NCBI GenBank assembly: GCA_022561755.1
Contig: JADFQN010000012.1
Coordinates: forward strand, 1-37,038
Direction: 5' to 3'
Origin: Bacteroidota bacterium
GTDB lineage: Bacteria; Bacteroidota; Rhodothermia; Rhodothermales; Rubricoccaceae
DNA length: 37,038 bases
A program made the position numbers and the translations under genes. Position 1 is the first letter of the stretch. Every line of letters begins with the position of its first letter. The notes beneath the pieces are model-generated. The model ran no database searches. It was not told the DNA's origin and worked only from the letters and a program-made list of their open reading frames with translations. Of the stretch, positions 7,104-35,566 are shown in pieces.

Positions 7104-7267
7104 AGGAGTCCATCTGACTTAGGATGTTTCTACTGCGGCGGTGGCAAATCGGCTCATTTCCCCCATCTTTTTCGTTACGTAGCGCCACTATGTGCCTCAA
7201 AAGATCGGGAAACTGCTCTCGATTTCCCGCCTGCCTCGTTACGAACCCCTAAGTCTGATGGACTCCT
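7104..7267. repeat. family A palindromic element, copy A2
   Basis: Terminal arms AGGAGTCCATCTGACTTAGG / CCTAAGTCTGATGGACTCCT (1 mismatch); internal sequence matches A3 along its length. Confidence 0.8.
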
Positions 7268-7303
7268 GGGGCACGTCGTTCTACCCCGCGTCCGGCGCAA
7301 CGT

Positions 7304-7478
7304 TTAGCAGCCCGTTGAAGATGTCATCCTGCCTTCCCGCCATGCGGCGGGAGTCTCGGCCGATCTCCGCGTTGCGAGATGCTCGTCGAATCACCCGATT
7401 CGCCTGCGATCTCGCGCCTTGATCTCGACCGAGATGCACTCGCCTCGGCGACGGAGCACATCTTCAACGGGCTGCTAA
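7304..7478. repeat. family B palindromic element, copy B5 (inverted relative to B2), with nested 21-nt hairpin at 7332-7352
   Basis: Perfect 20-bp terminal inverted repeat TTAGCAGCCCGTTGAAGATG / CATCTTCAACGGGCTGCTAA; interior homologous to B2 and B3. Confidence 0.85.
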
Positions 7479-10430: not shown

Positions 10431-10550
10431 AGGAGTCTGTCGGACTTAGGATGATTCTACTGCGGCGGCAATAAATCGGCCCATTTCCCCGTCTGCCTCG
10501 TTACAGCCTGCCCCGCCTTGGCGGGGAACCCCTAAGCCCGACAGACTCCT
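10431..10550. repeat. family A palindromic element, copy A1, with nested 21-nt hairpin at 10505-10525
   Basis: Arms AGGAGTCTGTCGGACTTAGG / CCTAAGCCCGACAGACTCCT; internally deleted relative to A2/A3. Confidence 0.82.
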
Positions 10551-10670
10551 AGGAGGCTGTTGAATTACGTGCTCTGTCGCCGAGACAGCCTGCCCCGACT
10601 TGTCGGGGAGCGCATCTCGGTCGAGAGGTGCCGTCGCAGGCAGGATGACGTATTTCAAAAGACTCGTAGG
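10551..10670. repeat. family B palindromic element, copy B1, with nested 21-nt hairpin at 10587-10607; directly abuts A1
   Basis: aggaggctgttgaattacgtgctctgtcgccgagac...gatgacgtatttcaaaagactcgtagg, homologous to B2. Confidence 0.82.
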
Positions 10671-10679
10671 GCCGGCAGG

Positions 10680-11444
10680 TTACGGCGCGGGCCCGCTCAC
10701 GGTTTCGTGTGATGCGTCTTTCAAGAAGGATCGAATGTACGCGAACGCCTCCGAACCGTGGAATGAAATAAGGGTCACGTCGAACAGACCGGCGAAGTGC
10801 TTAAGGAAGCGGGCCGCGACCTCGGTTTCTTCCACGGGTCGGCCGAGTTCATGCGCCAGCGACGTCACGCCTCGGTCGCTAATCCCGCACGGCACAATGA
10901 GGTTGAACCAATCCAGGTCCGTGTTCATATTGAAGGCGAAGCCGTGCATGGTCACCCACCGGCTGCACCGAATGCCCAGCGCGCAGATCTTCCGCTCAGG
11001 CCCGCGCACGTCGGGGCCTATCCACACACCGGTGCGCCCCTCGATGCGCCCAGCGTGCAGGCCGTAGTCGGCGCACGTGAGCATGATGGCCTCTTCCAAC
11101 GTGCGGAGGTAGCGGTGGATGTCCTTAAAGAAGTGGTCGAGGTCCAGGATCGGGTAGCCGACGAGTTGCCCAGGCCCGTGGAATGTGATGTCGCCGCCCC
11201 GATCCACCGGGATGAACTCGGCGCCACGTTCCGAAAGCATCGGCTCGGACAGCAGCAGATTTGCACGGGTTCCGCTCTTTCCCAGTGTATACACAGGCGG
11301 ATGCTCCACCAGCAACAAGGAATGGGGGAGATGGGCGGGGGGAATGCTTCGCTTCGCTGCGATCAGGCGCGCCTGCACCTCTCGCTGAAGCTCCCAAGCT
11401 TCACGGTACCCCACTTGGCCCAAATGGCAAACAGCAACGTCCAT
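10680..11444 (-). CDS. lipB: octanoyltransferase LipB
   Basis: [89 protein letters not shown]. Confidence 0.96.
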
Positions 11445-20306: not shown

Positions 20307-20481
20307 AGTCTGTCGGACTTGGGGGTTCGTGACGAGGCAGGCGGGCAATCGAGAGCAGTTTTTGATCTTTTGAGGCGTCCCGCAGGCTTGCGGGATGGGG
20401 CTACGTGGCGAAAAAGATCGAAAACAATGGGCCGATTTACCGCTGCCGCAGTAAAATCACCCTAACTCCGACAGACTTCTA
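20304..20481. repeat. family A palindromic element, copy A3 (reverse orientation), with nested hairpin CCCGCAGGCTTGCGGG near 20379-20394
   Basis: Arms gaagtctgtcggactt / ctccgacagacttct; the reverse complement aligns to A2 along its length; begins at the stop codon of the preceding CDS. Confidence 0.82.
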
Positions 20482-23720: not shown

Positions 23721-23884
23721 AGGCTGTTGAATTACGTGCTCTGTCGCCGAGACGAGCGCATCTCGGTTGAGATCAAGGCGCGGAGATCGTGGTCGAATCG
23801 GTGATTCGGCGAGCATCTCGCAACGAAGAGATCGGCCGAGAGGCGCCGTCGCAGGCAGGATGACGTATTTCAACAGCCTCCTAG
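23717..23884. repeat. family B palindromic element, copy B2
   Basis: TAGGAGGCTGTTGAATTACGT / ACGTATTTCAACAGCCTCCTA (1 mismatch in 21). Confidence 0.85.
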
Positions 23885-27238: not shown

Positions 27239-27247
27239 CAAAAACAA

Positions 27248-27286
27248 CAGGCAAAAACCACAGGCAAAAACCAGAGGCAAAAACCA
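27248..27286. repeat. three tandem 13-mers (C/G)AGGCAAAAACCA just upstream of dnaX
   Basis: caggcaaaaacca caggcaaaaacca gaggcaaaaacca, followed directly by B3 (gaggctgttg). Confidence 0.9.
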
Positions 27287-27445
27287 GAGGCTGTTGAAAA
27301 AGGTGCTCCGTCGCCGAGGCGAGCTGATCTCGGCCGAGATCAAGGCGCGGGATCGCAGACGCATCAGAAATTCGGCGAGATTCCGCAACGCCGAGATCGG
27401 TCGAGAGACATCGCCGCAGGCAGGATGACCTCTTTCAACAGCCGC
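27287..27445. repeat. family B palindromic element, copy B3
   Basis: gaggctgttgaaaaaggtgctccgtcgccgaggcgagctgatctcgg...gcaggcaggatgacctctttcaacagccgcg. Confidence 0.82.
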
Positions 27446-33080: not shown

Positions 33081-33230
33081 GTAGGGCGTGCTCGCCGAGC
33101 GCGCCGGTTGTTCATGGTGTGAGAGGGCGAGGGGGAGAAAGGTGAAGGGAGCGGTGAGAGAAGATGGGAACCTGTAGAGACGGCCCGTAGGGGCGTCTCC
33201 GGGTAAGCATTACCGCTACGATATGAGAGG
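33081..33230. repeat. family G modules, copy 1: gtagggcgtgctcgccgagcgcgccggttgttcatgg then gtagagacggcccgtaggggcgtctccgggtaagcattaccgctacg
   Basis: Both modules recur, in swapped order, at 35457-35566. Confidence 0.8.
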
Positions 33231-35456: not shown

Positions 35457-35566
35457 CGTAGAGACGACCCGATGGGGCGTCCCCGGGTGAGCATTACTGC
35501 TACGGTATCAGAGGTTAGGGTAGGGCGTGCTCGCCGAGCGCGCCGGTTATTTATGGTATAAGAGGG
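35457..35566. repeat. family G modules, copy 2 (order swapped relative to copy 1)
   Basis: cgtagagacgacccgatggggcgtccccgggtgagcattactgctacggtatcagag then gtagggcgtgctcgccgagcgcgccggttatttatgg. Confidence 0.8.

Follow-up and report, generated by a model that had tools for sequence, protein, structure and literature searches.

Comparison of filled and empty sites indicates that a 21-nt hairpin with the 5′ tag AGCC, two copies of which lie in the 37,038-nt stretch of Bacteroidota DNA analysed here (the window), inserts into larger palindromes, usually as a clean piece directly 5′ of a G. We put at about an even chance the wider reading that this AGCC unit represents a third tagged class of mobile bacterial hairpins, which lands in REPs, MITEs, and other palindromic repeats, is moved single-stranded in trans, and occurs across several phyla. 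The two exact 21-nt inserts described in the earlier note are present in the window, each followed by its target G (Table 1). The 22-nt strings that include this G, AGCCTGCCCCGCCTTGGCGGGG (10505–10526) and AGCCTGCCCCGACTTGTCGGGG (10587–10608), have no other match in the window at ≤3 mismatches, and AGCCTGCCCCGNCTTGNCGGGG has exactly two matches there, both at the insert sites, and none in 100 shuffles. The two filled host repeats, A1 and B1, are unrelated to each other and directly abut at 10550; both are intergenic and lie 3′ of a lipB-like gene. The window also encodes an SprA-type protein, a sign of a Bacteroidota-type organism. Rfam gave no match at the gathering score anywhere in the window. 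A 13-nt unit, CAAAAACCAGAGG, is tandemly repeated at 27239–27290, directly adjoining a B element.

Table 1. Inserts, host repeats, empty junctions, and neighboring gene in the window
Feature	Position	Strand	Remark
AGCC-tagged mini-hairpin, C:G stem variant, 21 nt, AGCCTGCCCCGCCTTGGCGGG	10505..10525	+	inserted before G10526
AGCC-tagged mini-hairpin, A:T stem variant, 21 nt, AGCCTGCCCCGACTTGTCGGG	10587..10607	+	inserted before G10608
Target G at right junction, family A copy	10526	+	sole base between the flanks in empty copies
Target G at right junction, family B copy	10608	+	retained, on the basis of empty copies
Host repeat A, filled copy A1, TIR-like AGGAGTCTGTCGG...CCGACAGACTCCT	10431..10550	+	
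Host repeat B, MITE-like, TIR TAGGAGGCTGTTGAA...TTCAACAGCCTCCTA, shortened filled copy B1	10550..10669	+	
Empty element of family A	7104-7271		another, reversed, near 20318
Empty junction, family A, CCTCGTTACGAACCCCTAAG	7234..7253	+	
Empty junction, family B, CCGAGACGAGCGCATCTCGG	23747..23766	+	
Diverged empty junction, family B	27314..27333	+	
Diverged empty junction, family B	7429..7448	-	
Diverged empty junction, family A	20318..20337	-	
Neighbor gene, lipB-like (LplA-B catalytic domain)	10680..11444	-	

The principal evidence comes from a search of the genome DNA with the joined flanks of 168 distinct filled flank pairs, which found an empty counterpart for 74 of them; in 53 of these 74 pairs the spacer in the empty copy is exactly a single G, and in 8 further pairs, all at one site, it is AG. 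At the latter site the sequence of clean filled copies is gaca^AGCC...GGGG^agcac; in others an A was lost once the unit had inserted. It should be noted that the 74 pairs are not independent and represent about 16 host repeats, drawn mainly from the window's own genome, a Paludibacter MAG, a Cytophagales MAG, and Niastella soli. In a second, insert-agnostic test, in which whatever lies between fixed flanks was collected at 13 junctions, the recurrent spacers were either a single G (or its G-run and AG equivalents) or an AGCC...GGGG unit. At least four hosts in the own genome, A, B1, B2, and D, carry the insert; junctions in other genomes include gtcccgttag^G, gtgccgtag^G, gcattctgtag^G, and gtcctgcaa^G in Paludibacter, gacctgtcag^G in Niastella soli, where one filled copy and an empty copy that matches it perfectly share a single 20-kb stretch, and ctcccgtggga^G and gggcggg^G in the Cytophagales MAG. 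Copies in Caldithrix interrupt the palindrome CCCTGAGCYTGTCGAAGGG at GCYT^GTCG, and the empty palindrome is visible at locus L092; the host GTCATTGCGAGGCAC^GAAGCAATCT (L135) is presumably a palindrome of a familiar kind. Since AGCC...GGGG in the filled site usually corresponds to exactly one G in the empty site, the pairs point to clean insertion 5′ of the G without target duplication. The proposal that a very small palindrome inserts into larger ones is thus upheld by some 16 unrelated host repeats from several genomes, all with exact junctions at a single G, and membership of the AGCC unit in the MITEs, which was considered, is ruled out by the lack of a target duplication (one G when empty, 21 nt more when filled) and by the lack, in nearly all copies, of a tail that matches the head.

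These junctions also bear on an account that needs no dedicated enzyme, in which template switching or hairpin repair (SbcCD-type breakage and fold-back synthesis) copies hairpins between palindromes. The targets are indeed palindromes, filled and empty states are shuffled inside family B, the hairpin CCCCGCAGTACTGCGGGG replaces entire internal B hairpins, and a few inserts hold further inserts. However, such copying would predict variable ends and micro-homologies longer than one G, whereas the same ends, the A of AGCC and GGG before the G, are seen repeatedly in unrelated hosts and genomes that have no flanking homology in common, and we regard it as possible but rather doubtful. The defined ends argue for an enzyme that recognizes the unit.

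The contexts of the insertions, when similar ones are merged, comprise 41–63 sites, depending on strictness. An A is found two bases upstream of the junction in 41 of 63 sites (p 2e-11), and in 23 of 41 with the strictest merging (p 2e-5), whereas position −1 may be any base; the G 3′ of the junction is built into the construction of the joined flanks, and the base after it is seldom C. Joined targets are predicted to fold more stably (mean −6.2 kcal/mol) than noncoding G-centred control sites from the same loci that were not matched for GC content (−4.4 kcal/mol; p 6e-7), and at 33/77 sites the predicted target hairpin has the junction in its 3′ arm, as compared with 416/1770 controls (23.5%; p 3e-4). 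The target rule is therefore N^G, with a preference for A at the second base upstream and, in many cases, a position in the 3′ arm of a hairpin. The AC^G preference that the earlier note put up for testing does not hold in general, AC being limited to families A and B among the 41–63 contexts.

As read from the aligned copies, the unit appears to consist of the 5′ tag AGCC, a spacer TG, and the hairpin CCCCG-n-(often CTTG)-n-CGGG, with a length of 21 nt in the commonest form and 20–37 nt in others. Copies in the own genome form several stem-loop types with a common head, AGCC[TC]G, and a common stem, CCCCG...CGGG(G), and the tag AGCC[TC]G is present in all recurrent copies; a tail that matches the head AGCCTG is seen only in rare copies of the form AGCCTG...CAGGCT (loci L119 and L230). 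The two inserts in the window had been noted to differ by a compensatory stem pair, C:G versus A:T, and this proves to be general: the outer stem pair is complementary in 45 of 56 distinct six-base centres of the 22-nt class, where shuffling predicts 25.8 (maximum of 37 in 2000 shuffles). This covariation fits either a required hairpin or hairpin arms that correct themselves. In the Paludibacter MAG, a second 21-nt insert, GGTCTCCCGATTTATCGTGGA, is found inside the AGCC hairpin at L235:3300 and L236:1448, its hosts being two different AGCC stem variants, so that a hairpin is nested within a hairpin within a palindrome.

A search of the own genome (3.06 Mb in 198 contigs) with a strict pattern (≤2 mismatches) gave 46 copies, and none for the reversed pattern used as control; with the loop left free there were 70 matches and 1 for the control, and the total is about 60–70 AGCC(T/C)G + CCCCG...CGGG(G) hairpins. 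Elsewhere there are about 60 copies in a Cytophagales MAG and 40 in Niastella soli. The distribution is patchy among relatives, copies being present in 19/60, and the short-loop class is present in 14/300 genomes of the phylum. The exact 22-mer class is found within the Bacteroidota in Paludibacter, Niastella, Cytophagales, and Bacteroidales, and beyond them in Caldithrix, Stahlbacteria, and a few others, and some of the genomes that bear it have dozens of copies with stem variants of their own. Lone exact copies in Fimbriimonadaceae and a Proteobacteria MAG may be chance matches, because a 20-base pattern should match exactly about once in a collection of this size; among 2.9 million viral contigs, 65 stretches match a looser pattern, many of them perhaps by chance.

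The relationship between insert and host can be examined most closely in families A and B. In the own genome, B1 has 64 empty copies and about 28 filled, and family A has 43 empty junctions and about 16 filled. It is very improbable that the insert was there from the start and that the empty copies arose by its precise loss: the two states are interspersed on the B tree, which makes some losses within B possible, but the insert has no flanking direct repeats to explain precise deletion, and the predominance of empty copies in A and B1, together with the same insert in unrelated hosts, argues for insertion. In a tree of 52 B elements, from which the insert had been removed beforehand, the filled and empty labels are scattered (17 state changes as compared with 17.3 for shuffled labels), and at least 6 changes are forced by supported branches. 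The stem variant is mostly one per host family, the C:G form in A and the A:T form in B1. Because nearly all filled B1 copies share the A:T variant, we read the B data as one insertion followed by spread among B copies through recombination or gene conversion; B may also have gained the insert more than once, or lost it precisely in some copies. The suggestion that the insert is exchanged among palindromes thus stands within limits, namely within family B, where filled states are scattered. Neither host repeat was found in seven relatives, including members of the same genus, so that the usable empty sites are paralogous ones and outgroups do not polarize the change; the abundance of A and B here and their absence from those relatives suggest that both families have recently spread in the own genome.

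The single stem variant per family also suggests that copy number within a family reflects host amplification, which is what would be expected if the unit were immobile today, a few old insertions having been amplified with their host repeats and retained as RNA hairpins or terminators. This is an improbable reading, as many stem variants occur in one host family in Niastella soli and Paludibacter, and many single-copy targets also carry inserts. Another hairpin, CCCCGCAGTACTGCGGGG, which has no AGCC head, takes the place of whole internal hairpins in B elements of the own genome (loci L007, L027, L001, L017, and L020), replacing cgagcatctcg or a 39-nt hairpin, with a right border that is mostly caacg.

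An association with TnpA-REP or another Y1 enzyme, also raised in the earlier note, is not borne out at the level of gene neighborhoods. No AGCC hairpin was found at 32 loci with Y1_Tnp (RAYT) genes, 30 of them from 12 genomes and the others being both weak matches in the own genome, where mostly about 1.5 kb was inspected on each side and some loci are cut by contig ends. Two copy-bearing genomes (G063 and G039) gave no Y1_Tnp match, and the genes between paired copies encode ordinary proteins with no common candidate. The RAYT gene of the own genome (L078:3105–3940) is flanked instead by GTAG-tagged hairpins; GTAGGGCGTGCTCGCCGAGCGCGCC hairpins of the GTAG kind are found twice in the window, at about 33084–33110 and 35523–35549. 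The Y1_Tnp genes at L166 (G061) and L167 (G060) are flanked by palindromes like those that carry the AGCC unit in the same genomes; some AGCC hosts are therefore probably REPs, and the unit can sit in REPs of other systems. The absence of AGCC hairpins at Y1 loci, the clean ends, and the lack of duplication are compatible with movement by an enzyme outside the Y1/HUH group, such as an unrecognised recombinase, or by reverse transcription from a small hairpin RNA. We consider this unlikely, since there is no candidate gene beside paired copies and nothing positive for a specific alternative.

Our preferred reading, held at even confidence, is a non-autonomous mobile mini-hairpin moved in trans by a REP-type Y1/HUH single-strand route. 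The sequences show that the unit integrates as a defined piece 5′ of a G, often into the 3′ arm of a target able to form a hairpin; it would move as single-stranded DNA when target palindromes fold, for example on the lagging-strand template, with cutting and joining by a REP-type Y1/HUH enzyme supplied in trans. TnpA-REP, an enzyme of the Y1/HUH type, cleaves REP hairpins in single-stranded form, and the tag determines the dinucleotide: GTAG guides cleavage to CT or CA, GTGG to CC, and GTAC to GA or GT (PMC8266576). By this guide rule AGCC gives GG or GC and would select GG, and the observed right junction is GGG^G, an agreement that involves two bases and takes AGCC, not CCTG, as the tag. 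An insert inside a multi-copy host palindrome would be carried along when the host transposes and could pass between host copies by recombination or gene conversion, and either the need for a hairpin in movement or mutual correction of its arms would keep stem variants paired.

Several known systems resemble the AGCC unit in part. Mobile GC clusters of yeast mitochondrial DNA are likewise small, GC-rich hairpins that have clean ends and occur at filled as well as empty sites; they belong to a eukaryote organelle and have unrelated sequences. In the literature searched, the hairpin was not found printed as a bacterial repeat, the best precedents being in PMC3733652, where GTAG and CGTC REPs are established classes, the CGTC class having no known transposase, and a few are reported to lie inside larger palindromes, as do the CGTC-1 dimers of H. 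neapolitanus within 41-bp palindromes (Di Nocera 2013, PMC3733652). The unit resembles GTAG REPs, which are moved by TnpA-REP/RAYT (Di Nocera 2013, PMC3733652; Corneloup 2021, PMC8266576), in being a short tag with a small hairpin, dispersed and mostly intergenic; its layout of tag, 2 nt, and hairpin is that of Marinomonas REP, and in size and abundance (a 20–40 nt hairpin, dispersed, with many copies per genome) it corresponds to a REP. It differs from GTAG REPs in its tag, in having no adjacent Y1 gene, and in its precise N^G filled and empty junctions in unrelated hosts, and membership in that class is ruled out by the AGCC tag and the lack of a repeat-flanked RAYT (0/32 loci). CGTC REPs are likewise tagged short palindromes found in several phyla without a dedicated transposase, but their tag and stem are different and the AGCC unit, whose hairpin ends at the target G, lacks the CCA-like tail reported for them; tag and tail rule out membership here also. 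Because of its tag and the absence of an adjacent RAYT, the unit is not filed as a REP; it is REP-like and has palindromes as targets, but carries neither the GTAG nor the CGTC tag, and our best guess for its mechanism is a single-strand one of REP type with a new tag. Palindromes also serve as targets for the IS elements that insert into REP sequences (PMC1525189), but they are kilobase transposons with their own gene, whereas the AGCC unit is 21 nt long and has none.

At 21 bases, this hairpin ranks with the smallest mobile DNA elements for which genome sequences reveal the precise sites of insertion. On the question of how REP-like hairpins spread, dozens of natural filled and empty pairs give the ends, a target rule, and a link to target hairpins; because the pairs are exact to the base, the mechanism is directly testable. 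They also show that mobile palindromes nest, a hairpin entering the hairpins of other elements and traveling along with them. Such nesting makes repeats harder to annotate and may be the reason for the mosaic structure of many bacterial palindromes. If a third tagged class does exist, the AGCC unit would be a 21-nt parasite of repeats.
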